Source: a virus. From it: a stretch of 50,836 nucleotides of DNA. Location of the stretch: positions 1 through 50,836 of the IMG/VR virus record IMGVR_UViG_3300025012_000127; one strand, 5' to 3'. The position numbers and the translations under genes are program-made. The notes under the pieces are model-generated. The model made no database searches and was not told the origin of the DNA. It worked only from the letters and a program-made list of their open reading frames with translations. This document shows positions 6,750 through 26,724 of this stretch, piece after piece; position 1 is the first letter of the stretch, and the number at the start of each line of letters is the position of its first letter.

Positions 6750-6763
6750 GTTCATCCTTGAAC
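6750..6763. promoter_or_regulatory. GTTCATCCTTGAAC inverted repeat overlapping a weak promoter
   Basis: GTTCA-N4-TGAAC, preceded by GCT, matches the sites at 2229 and 18491. Its right half overlaps a weak -35 (TTGAAC 6758-6763) followed 16 bp later by TACACT (6780-6785). That geometry would suit repression of the genes from 6806. Confidence 0.4.
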
Positions 6764-14141: not shown

Positions 14142-14522
14142 GCTTGCCTGACAACTTGGAAAGACAAGTCGTATAGGACACGCATACGTTAAAGCGAAGT
14201 GGGGGTCGGTGGAAGCCCGACATTTCTTATTTGCTTATATTAGTAGTGGTGGCGAAATAAAAAATGGTAGACGCAGCCGATTGTGTCCATAAGTAAACCT
14301 AGCCCATGTTTCTATGGCCGGACACAGAGCGAATAGTGTAATCGAGGGTAAAGGCTATTCAATTGCAGGTTCAAATCCTGCCCACTACTTTTTAACTCTT
14401 ACTGCCGGAAACGCATTGGATAGCAAGTCCATGCGCACCATTCGACCTGAATTGACAGGTATCGCCAGCATGACGATGTTGGAATCGGCTTCTTAGTAAG
14501 ATTCAACGAGAGGATTTCTCAA
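14142..14522 (+). other. Structured non-coding segment around the tRNA-like gene
   Basis: About 380 bp without a credible protein gene. Before the tRNA-like gene: CGTAT/ATACG and GTCGG/CCGAC hairpins, the latter followed by T-rich sequence (weak terminator). After it: a bulged CGCATTGGA/TCCATGCG stem near 14412-14435 and an ACCTG/CAGGT hairpin near 14445-14460. A 60-codon frame at 14314 is a translation through the T-arm, not a gene. Confidence 0.5.
14243..14388 (+). tRNA. tRNA-Leu-like gene with inserted sequence (or tRNA pseudogene)
   Basis: The acceptor arms match perfectly (GTAGTGG 14243-14249, CCACTAC 14382-14388). The T-arm is intact (GCAGG, TTCAAAT, CCTGC; 14365-14381). The D-arm reads like leucine tRNAs (TG-GCG...TGGTAGA-CGC) but has six extra A bases in its loop. 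The anticodon and variable region spans about 90 nt instead of about 35 and folds into TGTGTCC/GGACACA, CCAT/ATGG and GAATAG/CTATTC hairpins. I cannot place a 5-bp anticodon stem with a leucine anticodon. No CCA is encoded. It may hold an insertion, be decayed, or be a tRNA mimic. Confidence 0.5.
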
Positions 14523-17529: not shown

Positions 17530-17808
17530 ATGAAAATTGGAGTCAAACCAAAAAGTTATACCGATGTTATATGCTTTGATATTCCTGATAAAGAAAATGC
17601 TCAATTTATTGATGATATTTTTAATTCTATTTCAGTTAGTTCAGAGGAAGAGCTTGATTTTGTAGTAACTGTCACAGGCAAAAAGAAAGATAAAATAGTC
17701 AATAAAGATTTTTATCAAATAGTTGCAGATGAATTAAATATAACAAGAGAAGAAGCAAAGAAAGCAATATTAAATCTTCAGTATAAAGGAGAAAATAAAA
17801 CAGAATAA
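17530..17808 (+). CDS. 92-residue hypothetical protein between Sak4 and SSB
   Basis: AAAGGAG precedes the ATG. Alpha/beta outline: VICFDIP strand, acidic helix, a KKKDKIVNKDF turn and a C-terminal helix (NITREEAKKAILNLQYKG). Position suggests a role with the recombinase; no family recognised. Confidence 0.66.
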   Translation: MKIGVKPKSYTDVICFDIPDKENAQFIDDIFNSISVSSEEELDFVVTVTGKKKDKIVNKDFYQIVADELNITREEAKKAILNLQYKGENKTE

Positions 17809-17920
17809 AACTAAATTAAAACAAACTAAACTAAAGTAATTAAACTAACTTTTGACTAGAGAATAGTTCTTTGGTCAAGCATCACGCATCATACCAAACT
17901 TATTTAAAGGAGATTTACTC

Positions 17921-18343
17921 ATGTCTATGATTCCTAATCTGTCCGAAATTCCTGACAAAGCACCTGTTGAAGCTGGCGAATATGACCTCACCATCTCTAA
18001 GGTCAAAGAGACCAAGTCTCAGCGCACTGGCAGGTATGGTTGTCAGCTGATTATTAATATCGACGGAGAAGATAACGCATCAACTATCTTTCACACTCTC
18101 TGGTATGGTAACTACAAAGATTATCAGGGTGACGATGAAGAAAAGAATAACCTCATGTGGCGGATGGTAAAAGATTTTCTCCGTGCACTTGGACTTGATC
18201 CAGACCAGGAAACCGACGAATCTGATCTGGTCGGCCTCAATTTTACGGCTGAACTCAGTTTTAATGATGGCATGTCGACAGATGATGATGGTAATCCGAT
18301 CAAGGTTGGTCAGCCAAGGAATGAAATTGCTCGTGTAGTTTAA
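17921..18343 (+). CDS. SSB-like protein (DUF669-type)
   Basis: 140 residues. The start (PVEAGEYDLTISKVKETKSQ), then a QLIINIDGED strand, a WRMVKDFLRALGLD helix and a DLVGLNFTAELSF strand match the DUF669/OB-fold single-strand DNA-binding outline typical next to Sak4. The tail is not the acidic DDIPF tip of cellular SSB. AAAGGAG lies upstream. Binds single-stranded DNA in replication and annealing (family knowledge). Confidence 0.75.
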   Translation: MSMIPNLSEIPDKAPVEAGEYDLTISKVKETKSQRTGRYGCQLIINIDGEDNASTIFHTLWYGNYKDYQGDDEEKNNLMWRMVKDFLRALGLDPDQETDESDLVGLNFTAELSFNDGMSTDDDGNPIKVGQPRNEIARVV

Positions 18344-18355
18344 TAACGGAGCTTT

Positions 18356-18439
18356 ATGATCAAGTTTAATTCGATATTAGAGTCTAGTTACCACTTTCAG
18401 TTAGCTAGGTCTGGCATTGCCGGAACAATGTCATTCTGA
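18356..18439 (+). CDS. Possible 27-codon ORF at the head of the structured RNA
   Basis: ACGGAGC stands close before the ATG, a good site, and the frame encodes MIKFNSILESSYHFQLARSG plus seven residues. It runs into the first hairpin of the non-coding RNA region. It could be a leader peptide that couples ribosome movement to the downstream hairpins, or a chance frame. Confidence 0.3.
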   Translation: MIKFNSILESSYHFQLARSGIAGTMSF

Positions 18440-18720
18440 ACGAGGCGTTGATGTGACGCCTACAAGATATCGGAATAAATAAAACTTGCTGTTCACTTAT
18501 GAACGAACTGTTGAATGGTTCGCAAGTAAGTGAACAGCAACTTACAATTGAATGTATGAATCTAATAATCCACATAGATCTGGCCTATGGTTAGGATTAT
18601 ACCTAAAGTAGCATTTGTGTAATGCTATAGCTCGTAGTTACCAGACATAAGATACTGGACTCAGAGCTAAGAACATGAGAGGTATAATACCAATGCCTCT
18701 CATGTCTTGTTTTTATTTAT
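18410..18720 (+). ncRNA. Candidate structured ncRNA: tandem hairpins ending in terminator
   Basis: No long frame. In order: TCTGGC/GCCGGA (18410-18424); AGGCGT/ACGCCT (18443-18461); a long imperfect stem with 21-nt arms at 18488-18508 and 18518-18538; a two-part stem ATAATCC+CATAG/CTATG+GGATTAT (18565-18600); TAGCATT/AATGCTA (18609-18627); TAGCTC..CCAG/CTGG..GAGCTA (18628-18669); then the terminator stem at 18673. Gaps between the last hairpins are 0-9 nt. It follows the SSB gene. I see no own consensus promoter, so it may be the processed 3' part of the recombination-operon mRNA. Confidence 0.6.
18673..18718 (+). terminator. Intrinsic terminator
   Basis: ACATGAGAGG (18673-18682) pairs perfectly with CCTCTCATGT (18696-18705), followed by CTTGTTTTTATTT. 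Ends the 13642-driven unit and the hairpin array. Confidence 0.85.
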
Positions 18721-18741
18721 CTTACTAAATAAATATTACTA

Positions 18742-18939
18742 ATGAAACTAATTAAAACATTAAATGATTGGTTATTAAAACGGAAGAGAAAGAATTGTAA
18801 GCATCAATGGGCTTCTTCAGATAATTTTCACAGAACCTGCTCTGTTTGCGGATTGAAACAGATTATTGTTTATTATCGATTCGGACCAATAAGGACAGAA
18901 TGGATTCAAGATCCATGGCAACTTATTAATAAAGGTTGA
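18742..18939 (+). CDS. 65-residue basic zinc-binding protein
   Basis: CKH (NCKHQW, about residues 18-21) and CSVCG (about 33-37) make a likely C/H-C-C zinc site like those of small phage zinc proteins. Very basic start (LLKRKRKN). I see no ribosome site, so expression or the start is doubtful despite the coherent motif. Confidence 0.55.
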   Translation: MKLIKTLNDWLLKRKRKNCKHQWASSDNFHRTCSVCGLKQIIVYYRFGPIRTEWIQDPWQLINKG

Positions 18940-19016
18940 TATTATCTTTACTAAGAATTAATCTGCTAAAATATTAATGTTTAGCAAAGATAAATATCCT
19001 TCTAAAGGAGCTACCT

Positions 19017-20774
19017 ATGAATCATGAACAACTCATAAAAGAAATCTCTCAAGCAAACATGGCTTATGCTTCTGGCATACCATTCATGACAGATTCTGAA
19101 TATGATCTGTTATGGCAACAACTTTATGCTATAGACCCACATAACAATATCCTTTACCATACTGCACAAGGTCGGGCTGCTTTAACGGGCAAAACCTGGC
19201 ACAAGCACCCCATCTACGGAACTAACAAAGCATTCAACATGCTCGACCTTAAGCCATTCCTTACAAGGTTTGGATCTTATAAATTACGGATCGAACCCAA
19301 ATACGATGGTTGTGCAGCAGTTATAACTCTTACAGATACCGGAGTAAACATTACTCTTGAAGGTGACGGCAGATGTGGACGAGATATAACTCACTTAATG
19401 CCATACATTACGTTTCCATTTCATCTTCGGCACTTTCAAGCAGTTGAGATTCTTATCCTACTAAGTGAGTGGAATCCAGATTATGGAGCAAATCCAAGAA
19501 ATGTAGTTGCTGGCTGGCTAGACCGCAAATATGACAAGCCTTCTGCCCTGATGACAGCCATTCCACATAATCATGGCAACCTATTTGAAGAATATAACTA
19601 CTCCGGTAGCTTAGAAGCTATGGGAGATTTTCTGCTTGAGACATATAACAAATGGTCAAAGATCTATCCGATGGATGGACTTATGATTAAGGTGGCTGAT
19701 GAAAAAGTGCGGCTGGTTGCAGGTAATAATGGACAGACCAATAACTGGAGCATAGCTTGGAAGCCACCAATCCAAGTTAAAGAAACAAAAGTTACCAATA
19801 TTGAATGGAACATATCTCGCTTAGGTAGAGCTGTGCCAACAGTTATCTATGAGCCGATTGAACTTTGTGGAACTACAAATAATAGAGTAACAGGTAATAA
19901 TGCTCAGTGGATTAAAGACAGAAAGATTATGCCTGATTCTACAATATTAGTAGGTAAAGCAGGAGAAATAATTCCAAAGATTTTAGTAGTTCAAAATGAT
20001 ATTCCTAATGAGTATAGAAGAAATTTTCTTCCTACTAACTGTCCAAAATGTAATAATATTCTTCAATGGGAAGGAGTACATCTTGTCTGTAATGGAGCTA
20101 AATGTATAGCAAAATCAATCGTTTCCATTGCTTACTTCTACTCTCAGAAAGGTATAAAAATCGACGGAGTTGGCGAAGGCATTATAGAAAAGCTACTTCA
20201 GAATGAAAAATGTTATTCAGTTCTTTCAACCAAGCCTTGGGCACTTCTTGATCCTCTTAGCTACGACCTTGTGCCAGACATAATAAATACAATCGGAGTA
20301 ACAATTTATAGCAACATCGCTGAACAAGTATTTTCAATGAATAATCAATGCACAATGGCACACTTCGTCGCAGGTTTAGGTCTTCCAGGCTTAGCATATA
20401 AATCATCTCTGCGGCTTTGTCAATATTTAAAAACTGGACAGATTAATATTCACATAACTGATAATGCTAAACGCAGCTTTATTACTGCTGCAACTATTTA
20501 TACAGAAGCAATTAAGGAAATGAAAAATTTCTCTTTCGCGCAACTCCCTAGTGAAGCAAAAGCAATTTATTGCATTACCGGATCGTTGAGCCAGTCACGA
20601 GAAACTATAATAGAAATTCTGAACGGTTACGGATATGAATTTTCATCTGGAGTAACGAGAGAAACAAACTATCTGATCGTCGGAGATGATCCAGGCAGAA
20701 CTAAGATCGAAAAGGCAACTCGTTACAACATCCCTCAAATAACTGAGGAACAACTTTTTAACCTTTTACGGTGA
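19017..20774 (+). CDS. ligA: NAD-dependent DNA ligase (LigA-type)
   Basis: Seals nicks using NAD+. In the 585 residues: a partial NAD-binding Ia region (MTDSEYDLLWQQL, 24-36); adenylation motif I EPKYDGCA with Lys95; the motif EGDGRCGRDIT (about 115-125); MDGLMIKV (motif IV, about 220); an OB domain; a four-Cys zinc finger (NCPKCNNILQWEGVHLVC plus GAKC, about 342-364); helix-hairpin-helix segments; and a C-terminal BRCT domain (about 515-584). It is shorter than bacterial LigA (about 670) but retains all domains. AAAGGAG precedes the ATG. Bacterial-type LigA is uncommon in phages, which more often carry ATP-dependent ligases. Confidence 0.92.
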   Translation: MNHEQLIKEISQANMAYASGIPFMTDSEYDLLWQQLYAIDPHNNILYHTAQGRAALTGKTWHKHPIYGTNKAFNMLDLKPFLTRFGSYKLRIEPKYDGCAAVITLTDTGVNITLEGDGRCGRDITHLMPYITFPFHLRHFQAVEILILLSEWNPDYGANPRNVVAGWLDRKYDKPSALMTAIPHNHGNLFEEYNYSGSLEAMGDFLLETYNKWSKIYPMDGLMIKVADEKVRLVAGNNGQTNNWSIAWKPPIQVKETKVTNIEWNISRLGRAVPTVIYEPIELCGTTNNRVTGNNAQWIKDRKIMPDSTILVGKAGEIIPKILVVQNDIPNEYRRNFLPTNCPKCNNILQWEGVHLVCNGAKCIAKSIVSIAYFYSQKGIKIDGVGEGIIEKLLQNEKCYSVLSTKPWALLDPLSYDLVPDIINTIGVTIYSNIAEQVFSMNNQCTMAHFVAGLGLPGLAYKSSLRLCQYLKTGQINIHITDNAKRSFITAATIYTEAIKEMKNFSFAQLPSEAKAIYCITGSLSQSRETIIEILNGYGYEFSSGVTRETNYLIVGDDPGRTKIEKATRYNIPQITEEQLFNLLR

Positions 20775-23980: not shown

Positions 23981-24205
23981 ATGACAGGTGCTAACAATGG
24001 AACTCCTGTACAAATGGAAAATCTATTTGAAGAATCCTTAAAGAAAGTTATAGAAAAAATTAGTAAGTCTAATAAACTTATATCAATCAAACCTACTAAA
24101 CTAATATTACCACAAAATGTTATAGATTATCTTGCAGATTTAGGTTATGATTCACAAGAAAAAATAAACGAATTAATAATTGAGCTAACTAAGGATCAGT
24201 CATGA
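23981..24205 (+). CDS. 74-residue helical hypothetical protein upstream of polymerase
   Basis: GAGGAG precedes the ATG. Lys/Ile-rich helices; the stop overlaps the polymerase start (ATGA), so it is translated with it. Could assist the polymerase; not assigned. Confidence 0.64.
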   Translation: MTGANNGTPVQMENLFEESLKKVIEKISKSNKLISIKPTKLILPQNVIDYLADLGYDSQEKINELIIELTKDQS

Positions 24206-26724
24206 TAATCCCTAGCATATCAACTACAGCATCACCGCAGAAAGAAGGTTCTTTCAATGCATTAGCTGTAGAGTGCGCTCCAACTGACAACATACTCACG
24301 GCTGAGATTGCTATGGTTGGCGAAGCTCCAGGCGAAATCGAAGTCCTGAAGAATGAACCTTTCGTAGGTCCAACAGGCTCTCAGCTTAATCGCATCTGCG
24401 CAGCAGTCAGACTAGCAAGATATAAAATCTATCTCACTAATGCTTGCAAAGCTAAGTTCCCCAAAAACAATACCGCTGTCTTATGGACTGATAAAGGCTA
24501 TCGGCATCCAGACTGGAGCAAGTTGCAAGCAGCACTAATTGACGAGCTTGCTCAATTTCCAGGCAAAATCATAATGTTGCTCGGTGCAACTCCAATGAGG
24601 TTATTGCTAGATGAGCCTAAGTTCGATTCAATTACAAAATATCGTGGTGCATTCTACCATGCTGAAGACTTCCCACATTTAAAAGAAAAACTGGCTGGCA
24701 AAATAATAGGTTTGTCTTACCACCCATCTTTCACCCTCCCATACGGGCAGCCAATCCACTTTTATACAATGATTGCAGACTTCACGAAAGCCTTGCGGAT
24801 TATTGAAGATCCAGAATTGCTTACTGATAATGTGGAAATAAAAATCAAGCCTAGCTTTGAAGAAATCATGCAGTTCTACGCATTGATTAAGACAAAGCAA
24901 TATGTAGCCTTTGACATCGAGGCTACGCCAGAATTTATTACCTGCTATTCATTGGCTGTATATCACGATAACAAGATTCTATCCATGTCTGTTCCTCTAA
25001 TGAACAACCAGGGCAATTATTGGACAACAGGAGAAGAGATAAAAATCTGGACTGGCTTAGCTGAAATACTTAACAATGAAGCCATAGGTAAGATTTGTCA
25101 AAATGGAATGTTTGACATCATGTTTACTTTTCGCACCATGATGATCAAAACAGATAACTTTTATTTTGATACCATGCTGGCACAGCACATATGTTATACG
25201 GAACTTCCAAAAGGTCTTGATTATTTAACTTCAACTTACACATACTATCCATATTATAAGGACGAAGGAAAGCAATCTCACCTTAAGGCCATAAAGAACT
25301 GGCCACAATACTGGACTTATAATGCCAAAGACTCAGCATACTTATTGCCAATCACTGAGAAGCTTCTTGAGGAGTTAGGCGAGTTCGATTCTATGGATGC
25401 TATGGATTATACAATGAATCTCCATAAGCCACTCATGGAAATGGAATTCAATGGCATCTTGACTGATCCAGCAGGCATTGAAAATAAAAAGAAAGAACTT
25501 GAGCTTGAACTGATTGATCTGCAAAAAAAGTTGAATGAGTTGGCTGGAAAAGAATTAAATATGTCTTCATCGAAACAAATGATCTCATATTTCTATGGCA
25601 TTTGCATGATCAAACCATATGTAAATCGCAAAACTGGAGCTATATCGTGCGATGCTGTAGCTCTTCACAGAATTGCTAAGAAAGGAGTTAAAGGTTCTGC
25701 AGAAGCTAGAGTTATCATTCGTATGCGTGAGTTACAGAAACTCATTTCAACTTATTTTAATGTTGCAGTAGATGAGGATAATAAGCTTCGTTGTAATCAT
25801 AAAATATCTGGAACAGTCTCAGGCAGGATTGCCACTGAAAAGACATACTTTGGAACCGGCACAAACTTACAGAACCAGGTCTATATTTTTAAGTATTACT
25901 TATTGGCTGATCCTGATTGGATTTTATGTGAATGTGATCTTGCCAAAGCGGAAGCTCATGTAGTTGCATATCTTACTCAAGATGCTAACATGATTCAATC
26001 ATTCGAATCTGGTATTGACGTGCATAGCTTTAATGCAAGTAAGATATTTGGAGTTCCAATTGAAGATGTAATTCATGAAGCGAAGACTAAAAAGGCTGAT
26101 CAAAAATCAACAATGAGATATATGGGAAAGAAGGTTGTTCATGCATCTAATTATTCAATGGGTGCGCAGACTTTCTCTGACAATCTTGCAAAAGAAGAAA
26201 TTTTCAAATCTCAATCAGATTGCAAGAGGCTACTTGATAATTATTCTGATCGCTTCCCTGGACTGAAACGCTGGCATAGATCAATCGAAGAAGAGGTTCA
26301 AAAGAATCGAGTTCTCTACAACTTATTTGGCCGACCTCGCAGGTTCTTAGGTGAAATGAATGCAGCATTATTCAGGAATGCTTATAGCTACAAGCCTCAG
26401 TCAACAGTTGCAGAGTTGCTCAATCGTGGAATGATTAAAGTAGTGAATGATCCTAGGCTCGGCAAAGACGGATTTGATATTCGCTGTATGACAACTGTCC
26501 ATGACTCGTTTGTATTCAGGTTTCACAAAAGCCAGATTCCAAACTTGCCTCAGATCCTTCTTATCATTAAAGATCATCTGACACATACGTTTACTTACAA
26601 AGGAAAGAGTTTTACCATTGGCTTGGATGCTAAGATTGGCACTCAATGGGCAGGTAACACTGCTGAAATCAGTAAGTTTACTCAGGAAGAATGTGATAAA
26701 GCAATTGAAAAGATAGGATTCTAA
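24202..26724 (+). CDS. Family A DNA polymerase with N-terminal uracil-DNA-glycosylase-like domain
   Basis: Replicative polymerase of 840 residues. (a) UDG-like domain, about 1-200: GEAPGEIEVLKNEPFVGPTG (40-59), LTNACKAKFP (78-87), LLGATPMRLLL (126-136) and SYHPSF (172-177), the family 4/5 outline. (b) 3'-5' exonuclease, about 230-400, with FDIEAT (237-242). (c) Polymerase: template-binding SGRIATEKTYFGTGTNLQNQ (about 536-555), motif A with catalytic Asp (CECDLAKAEAHVV, about 575-587), motif B (KKVVHASNYSMG, about 643-654) and motif C (TTVHDSF, about 764-770). All catalytic acids are present. The start overlaps the preceding gene (ATGA). A UDG-Pol A fusion resembles the SPO1 polymerase architecture. 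Confidence 0.93.
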   Translation: MIIPSISTTASPQKEGSFNALAVECAPTDNILTAEIAMVGEAPGEIEVLKNEPFVGPTGSQLNRICAAVRLARYKIYLTNACKAKFPKNNTAVLWTDKGYRHPDWSKLQAALIDELAQFPGKIIMLLGATPMRLLLDEPKFDSITKYRGAFYHAEDFPHLKEKLAGKIIGLSYHPSFTLPYGQPIHFYTMIADFTKALRIIEDPELLTDNVEIKIKPSFEEIMQFYALIKTKQYVAFDIEATPEFITCYSLAVYHDNKILSMSVPLMNNQGNYWTTGEEIKIWTGLAEILNNEAIGKICQNGMFDIMFTFRTMMIKTDNFYFDTMLAQHICYTELPKGLDYLTSTYTYYPYYKDEGKQSHLKAIKNWPQYWTYNAKDSAYLLPITEKLLEELGEFDSMDAMDYTMNLHKPLMEMEFNGILTDPAGIENKKKELELELIDLQKKLNELAGKELNMSSSKQMISYFYGICMIKPYVNRKTGAISCDAVALHRIAKKGVKGSAEARVIIRMRELQKLISTYFNVAVDEDNKLRCNHKISGTVSGRIATEKTYFGTGTNLQNQVYIFKYYLLADPDWILCECDLAKAEAHVVAYLTQDANMIQSFESGIDVHSFNASKIFGVPIEDVIHEAKTKKADQKSTMRYMGKKVVHASNYSMGAQTFSDNLAKEEIFKSQSDCKRLLDNYSDRFPGLKRWHRSIEEEVQKNRVLYNLFGRPRRFLGEMNAALFRNAYSYKPQSTVAELLNRGMIKVVNDPRLGKDGFDIRCMTTVHDSFVFRFHKSQIPNLPQILLIIKDHLTHTFTYKGKSFTIGLDAKIGTQWAGNTAEISKFTQEECDKAIEKIGF

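Follow-up and report, generated by a model that had tools for sequence, protein, structure and literature searches.

The stretch examined here, positions 18356-18720 of a 50.8-kb record from an uncultivated phage (IMG/VR record IMGVR_UViG_3300025012_000127, whose full length of 50,836 nucleotides (nt) we refer to as the window), lies between a DUF669 gene, which resembles genes for single-strand DNA-binding (SSB) proteins, and a short open reading frame (ORF), zinc-ribbon-like by eye, for which neither Pfam nor PHROG gave a match. A gene for an NAD-dependent DNA ligase comes after the short ORF (Table 1). The initial annotation had proposed the stretch as a candidate new phage RNA with six successive stems ahead of a terminator, suggested a regulatory, decoy, or protein-binding RNA, and expected a discrete transcript of about 300 nt. 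The + strand of 18356-18720 has a minimum free energy of -119.9 kcal/mol, compared with -80.2 ± 4.6 kcal/mol for 100 dinucleotide shuffles (z = -8.65; 0 of 100 folded as well), and the excess folding energy that the annotation had anticipated is thus present. The minus strand folds less well (z = -5.61), and in a scan of 150-nt segments on both strands of the whole window, ranks 1 and 4 fall within this stretch. No covariance model of Rfam 15, GOLLD and ROOL included, reaches its gathering score in the window, a search of 17800-19050 at E ≤ 5 returned nothing meaningful, and ARAGORN finds neither a transfer RNA (tRNA) nor a transfer-messenger RNA (tmRNA) in the window. To that extent the suggestion of a new RNA stands; however, the array comprises three modules, here called A, X, and C, each of them inherited separately, and not a single RNA.

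Table 1. Positions of the features in and around the slot and in the second island, in window coordinates
Feature	Position	Strand	Basis
DUF669 / SSB-like gene, left edge of the slot	17921..18343	+	Pfam PF05037, E 2.8e-4; PHROG 378 single-strand DNA binding protein, E 2.9e-4
Small ORF, 27 residues (MIKFNSILESSYHFQLARSGIAGTMSF), with Shine-Dalgarno sequence, reads into module A	18356..18439	+	
Module A, four-way-junction RNA	18370..18475	+	Covariation; four independent lineage folds
Module A, helix P1	18370-18378/18466-18474		
Module A, helix P2	18384-18390/18402-18408		
Module A, helix P3	18412-18419/18426-18433		
Module A, helix P4	18443-18448/18456-18461		
Module X, 14-15-bp hairpin with inner stem	18481..18543	+	Arm covariation; 10 G-U vs 1 A-C
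Palindrome GTTCACTTATGAAC (GTTCA-N4-TGAAC), core of the dispersed element	18491..18504		
Module C, helices P1-P5, conserved loop UCUGGNCU and GCUAAG	18563..18705	+	
P5 of module C with U-rich tail, terminator-like	18673..18720	+	
65-residue ORF with CxxC motifs, 3' of module C	18742..18939	+	
AT-rich inverted repeat, recurring slot element before the next gene	18942..18998	+	Self inverted match; common to L001, L004, L006, L007, L009, L012, L013, L015
tRNA-chassis RNA (acceptor, D, and T arms; anticodon arm replaced), second island	14243..14389	+	
Four-way-junction module directly after the tRNA-chassis RNA	14403..14489	+	Fold; conservation in L017, L018

Modules A, X, and C in a variable slot

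A search with the DUF669 protein returned as relatives 36 IMG/VR contigs and one contig of a metagenome-assembled genome (MAG) labelled Bacteroidales, with no cultured phage among them; in bacterial genomes the family was found on one MAG contig only. Many of the IMG/VR contigs stem from a few sample series, and independent lineages are few (~4 for A, 3 for C). Across these ~37 contigs the slot that follows the DUF669 stop codon is a variable hotspot in which structured modules are gained and lost, in the constant order D, A, tRNA-shaped or other RNA, X, C, and AT-rich repeat. Near-identical phages differ in which of these modules they carry. One relative (L016) has A and X in common with the window, at 97.5% over 200 nt, and then continues into a different module, and another (L013) has the extra module D ahead of A, retains C, and is missing the 65-residue ORF. 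Some relatives have A without C, some C without A, and some other modules in the slot, which does not support a single RNA of ~300 nt. Downstream genes vary where the slot modules stay constant. Most slots of the relatives fold better than shuffles, and at these slot loci Rfam detected tRNA only.

The pairing of module A is retained across the relatives, as 99.4% of the cells are paired in an alignment of 12 distinct sequences and 9 of the 30 pairs are changed on both sides, against a shuffled mean of 1.9. None of 500 shuffles equaled the observed value on any measure, and sliding the partners lowers pairing to 28-48%. Independent folds of four lineages give the same shape. The alignment cells comprise 42 G-U and 1 A-C, which identifies the + strand as the RNA. 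The helices are less conserved than the loops and junctions: the conserved sequence is GAACGA-GGCGU...ACGCC-UACAAG plus AGAG, and GAACGAGGCGUUGA-N-G-N-GACGCCUACAAG is retained although P3 has been rewritten. The small ORF with a ribosome site that had been noticed at the left edge of the array is also borne out (AACGGAGCTTTATG); all A-bearing relatives tested retain the start in frame, 7, 8, or 9 codons ahead of TTA-GAG. A model of module A (R1) gave no matches in 297 genomes of the phylum of the MAG, and a blastn search of 50,697 cultured phages with the stretch returned short, weak matches only, one of which (TJE1) was later recognized as an A-type RNA. Mimicry of ribosomal RNA (rRNA) by modules A and C was considered and rejected, the longest exact match of ~10-12 nt being at chance level.

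Module X contains the GTTCA-N4-TGAAC palindrome pointed out in the initial annotation. Its two arms occur in 11 combinations, each of which pairs at 14 or more of 15 positions, and the four bases between the palindrome halves covary with the 3' arm of the module; the excess of G-U over A-C cells (Table 1) again indicates the + strand. A U-rich tail follows the module in relatives. The short palindrome is retained even where the distal arm of X is gone, and X may therefore form two mutually exclusive hairpins. The core is also dispersed through these genomes, with 3-8 copies in nearly all related records searched and 0-1 for the reversed control. We collected 39 distinct intergenic copies ahead of genes, which have in common the asymmetric flank AACTTGCY/RACCA. 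The bases within and around the core are roughly symmetric across the copies, which would be compatible with a DNA operator. Two further intergenic copies lie in the window at 2229-2242 and 6750-6763, the second ~40 nt before a start codon. We rejected the idea that X is a general promoter because no consistent -35/-10 was found, and many database copies of the core are protein-coding coincidences, as in the recurrent reading NLLFIDEL.

When the window, L013, L017, and L018 are folded independently, module C takes the same topology in all four, although P3, P4, and P5 differ in sequence. A pattern search for it recovered only the same phage group and one unrelated match in a G+C-rich contig (L188). 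Its last stem (18673-18705), followed by CTTGTTTTTA, is the one that had been described as a 10-bp terminator, and a G+C-rich stem with a U-tract, as in an intrinsic terminator, is indeed present at 18673-18715. However, L017 and L018 retain the stem without the U-tract, which places the stem within module C and does not let it define the end of the array. The successive stems are likewise real, although we count about nine helices instead of the six first noted: A has four, X is a single long hairpin, and C has P1-P5, with P2 stacked inside P1. Compensatory changes, which had been expected of a genuine RNA, were found for A, X, and C alike. The comparison with relatives shows the three modules to be conserved RNA structures that are inherited separately, with A and X read from the + strand.

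tRNA-shaped RNAs and a class of four-way junctions

Several slots, as well as a second island of the window (14142-14522), hold tRNA-shaped RNAs, which keep the acceptor, D, and T arms and have the anticodon arm replaced. The insert that replaces it differs in almost every phage, and in two contigs (L001 5421-5870 and L004 5421-5993) it includes 17-18 nt identical to bacterial 23S rRNA (GAGTAGCGGCGAGCGAAA). The second island is non-coding and has a further structured module at ~14150-14225; related phages put other inserts into the same tRNA chassis as this island. The module directly after the chassis RNA is possibly a second, diverged relative of the same four-way-junction architecture. Module A does not adjoin a chassis RNA in the window. 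In L001, L004, L051, and L102 it does, with A first, which reverses the order seen in the R2 RNAs described below, and L034 has an apparent A-type junction within the tRNA chassis.

We searched IMG/VR with the P4 hairpin of module A (pattern ACGAGGCGN{5,16}CGCCTACA), which gave 115 matches in the loci examined, 47 of them non-coding by an open-frame filter. The pattern alone is loose, and later E-values on loci preselected by the hairpin are optimistic. Most of the 47 non-coding matches agree in bases far outside the pattern, and the phages are otherwise unrelated. The typical order of this type-I four-way-junction RNA of phage tRNA arrays, captured in a model that we call R2, is P1, GUA, Pa, GAAYAACGA, Pb (GGCGU/ACGCC), UACAA, Pc, RGAG, and P1'. 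In an alignment of 11 sequences, 92.7% of the cells are paired and both partners have changed in 15 of 23 pairs, with a covariation of 0.54 compared with 0.19 for shuffled and at most 0.16 for slid partners. The R2 matches come after a T-arm and acceptor end in 23 of 36 cases, most with gaps of 1-3 nt, against a background of 1.4%. For most of these 23, a 5' acceptor strand lies 77-186 nt upstream, and the preceding element is therefore a tRNA-shaped RNA with an insert. These matches show that, in the tRNA arrays of other phages, an RNA predicted to form module A's most conserved hairpin directly follows a tRNA-shaped RNA.

The one solid R2 match in a cultured phage is in Tetrasphaera phage TJE1 (37754-37836; E 1.7e-6); Arthrobacter phage Kumotta is a weaker candidate carrier. 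The hairpin also occurs in phages ChrisDB and D6, within gaps of tRNA arrays, and in CUS-3 (L315 1199-1221), where it has no annotation and falls between gene Q, for an antiterminator, and gene S, for a holin; in these three phages there is the hairpin alone or a weak full match (15.5-17 bits). The sequence around the CUS-3 hairpin was found in 118 of 5,426 complete E. coli genomes. With no motif preselection, R2 matches 2 of the 297 bacterial genomes of the MAG's phylum (E 4.6e-12 and 3.2e-5), and one of the two reads as a textbook member near a transposase-like ORF. At L319 (1500-1580), a bacterial locus with this setting, the type-I RNA is complete and no tRNA gene was found nearby. One phage tRNA array (L291 3226-4386) holds a GOLLD RNA and two A-type RNAs. 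The R2 RNA belongs to no Rfam family where tested, a claim of novelty that rests on Rfam 15 and a limited search of the open literature.

Module A and the R2 RNA have in common the hairpin (GAAC..)ACGA-GGCGU-loop-ACGCC-UACAA (18437-18466 in the window), including its UACAA, the RGAG strand between the post-UACAA helix and the next helix (AGAG at 18379-18382), and four helices round a single junction. They differ in that the post-UACAA helix closes the molecule in module A, which amounts to a circularly rearranged order. Closed-form relatives exist in three unrelated contigs, L219, L254, and L299, where the strand after the closing helix reads AGAG, GGAGAG, and GGAG, respectively, and R1 scores L254 at 35.7 bits. 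From this reading of the junction and the three natural intermediates, module A is likely, but unproven, to be a circularly rearranged member of the R2 class. Several observations count against the assignment. The GUA strand (J1) before helix Pa is not recognizable in module A, which reads GUC/GUU, and J2 is so only partly; R2 in its ordinary helix order gives no match in the window at E ≤ 5 and matches L034, L018, L051, and L027 weakly, the relatives of module A reaching 14.6-17.9 bits; and L254 was preselected via the common hairpin, which makes its E-value optimistic.

Possible roles of the island

We read the slot from the DUF669 gene to its downstream neighbor as an RNA island of exchangeable phage RNAs, made up of short modules that fold on their own and are gained or lost, with A and C acting in trans and X in cis; as a whole, and on comparative grounds, we give this reading about an even chance. 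The island would be transcribed along with the DUF669 operon and then cut into stable RNAs, the tRNA-shaped ones presumably being released by tRNA-processing enzymes. A and C would be trans-acting in the host; they would probably affect its translation or its tRNA apparatus, or serve as decoys for defenses that target RNA, and X would be a cis element, either a terminator or a protein-binding hairpin, that is also used upstream of other phage genes. Trans-acting small RNAs are favored because unpaired bases are conserved, the + strand is preferred, the modules are independent of the downstream gene, the island turns over, and there is an association with tRNA-shaped RNAs and tRNA arrays. Two points detract from this account, namely, the few independent lineages (~4 with A, 3 with C) and the kept small ORF and ribosome site, which suggest translation into A that a pure trans RNA would not need.

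A cis-regulatory reading stays alive because the ribosome site leads into A and the X hairpin is bistable. The stretch would then be a leader or attenuator in which translation of the small ORF into A, together with the choice between the short and the long hairpin of X, sets read-through to the DNA ligase or small ORF. The conserved ribosome site and frame that run into A, the mutually exclusive hairpins of X with U-rich sequence after them, the terminator-like end, and the presence of X upstream of other genes all suit such a device. Nevertheless, the downstream gene changes with the modules constant and the modules change with the gene constant, A is lacking in about half of the contigs, and the closest relatives of A elsewhere sit in tRNA arrays rather than before one particular gene, and we consider an attenuator unlikely.

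The location just 3' of a gene, the nested hairpins, and the terminator-like stem are also what would be expected if the slot were merely a 3' untranslated region and terminator that protects the DUF669 message, the modules being interchangeable stabilizing hairpins without specific function. Generic stabilizers would not require the loops and junctions of A to be more conserved than its helices, however, and this explanation is improbable in our estimate. It is highly doubtful that a small peptide (core I/V-L-E-S-S-Y/F) is the conserved entity and the RNA structure secondary, for although the start, Shine-Dalgarno sequence, and frame are retained in the lineages tested, the stop position varies (17 to 27 residues), the L, E, S, and S codons are identical at all positions, and the sequence past the stop is equally conserved. 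We give similarly little credit to a recombination or mobile-element hotspot with the palindromic hairpins (X and the AT-rich repeat) as sites and the RNAs as passengers: gain and loss are frequent at a single place, and the imperfect palindromes X and 18942-18998 flank the variable modules, but no recombinase or transposase was seen at the slot, inserts occur on both sides of X, and the modules covary as RNAs.

The reading as an island of trans-acting RNAs has parallels in known phage systems. GOLLD (RF02032) and ROOL are structured phage and prophage RNAs of unknown function that often lie near tRNA islands (PMC12286853), and L291 carries GOLLD together with an A-type RNA; they are, however, ~600-800 nt long and form nanocages, whereas module A (~105 nt) and module C (~145 nt) are shorter and have different structures. 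In T4, rnaD (species 2) and rnaC (species 1) are adjacent stable RNAs of ~120 and ~140 nt in a tRNA cluster, where (L313 909-1172) rnaD lies 6 nt before rnaC. The latter combines a canonical tRNA T-arm end (GGTTCGAATCC) with a long insert, as do the tRNA-chassis RNAs here, and in L001, L004, L051, and L102 the chassis RNA likewise comes after module A. To the best of our knowledge, the function of rnaC and rnaD is unknown. As homologues of module A they were rejected, since the best R1 score of 12.3 bits falls outside both, and R2 gave no match in the T4 tRNA region. The chassis RNAs resemble tmRNA in joining a tRNA shape to a long structured insert, and differ from it in that neither ARAGORN nor Rfam at its gathering thresholds gave a tmRNA match. 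We thus treat GOLLD, ROOL, and rnaC/rnaD as resemblances, for which our searches found no homology.

Tentatively, and as something we hold possible rather than probable, the four-way-junction RNA and the adjacent tRNA-shaped RNA could each be one half of a single RNA machine that is widespread in phages. Such a machine would form a separate class alongside tmRNA, GOLLD, and ROOL and would be analogous to T4 species 1 and 2, and phages would swap its inserts in islands to match host translation or defenses. The abundant RNAs of unknown function in phage tRNA islands (GOLLD, ROOL, and T4 rnaC/rnaD) are an old open question, for which the R2 RNA offers a small and tractable object: it is compact and simple in structure, covaries strongly, has at least one cultured carrier, and usually adjoins a tRNA-shaped RNA in which other sequence takes the place of the anticodon arm. 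The hypervariable islands suggest that phages may trade RNAs as cassettes, much like accessory proteins.

Other features of the record

Two features away from the slot were noted in passing. The non-coding segment 3720-4300 of the window, which recurs in L042, is rich in GGCACCA/GTGTCCA repeats, has a palindrome composed of a C-run, AGTATTTAATTTTTTTTTTAAATA, and a G-run, and looks replication-origin-like. The ORF at 24202-26724 encodes a family A DNA polymerase with an N-terminal uracil-DNA-glycosylase-like domain, with glycosylase, exonuclease, and polymerase matches together in one frame.
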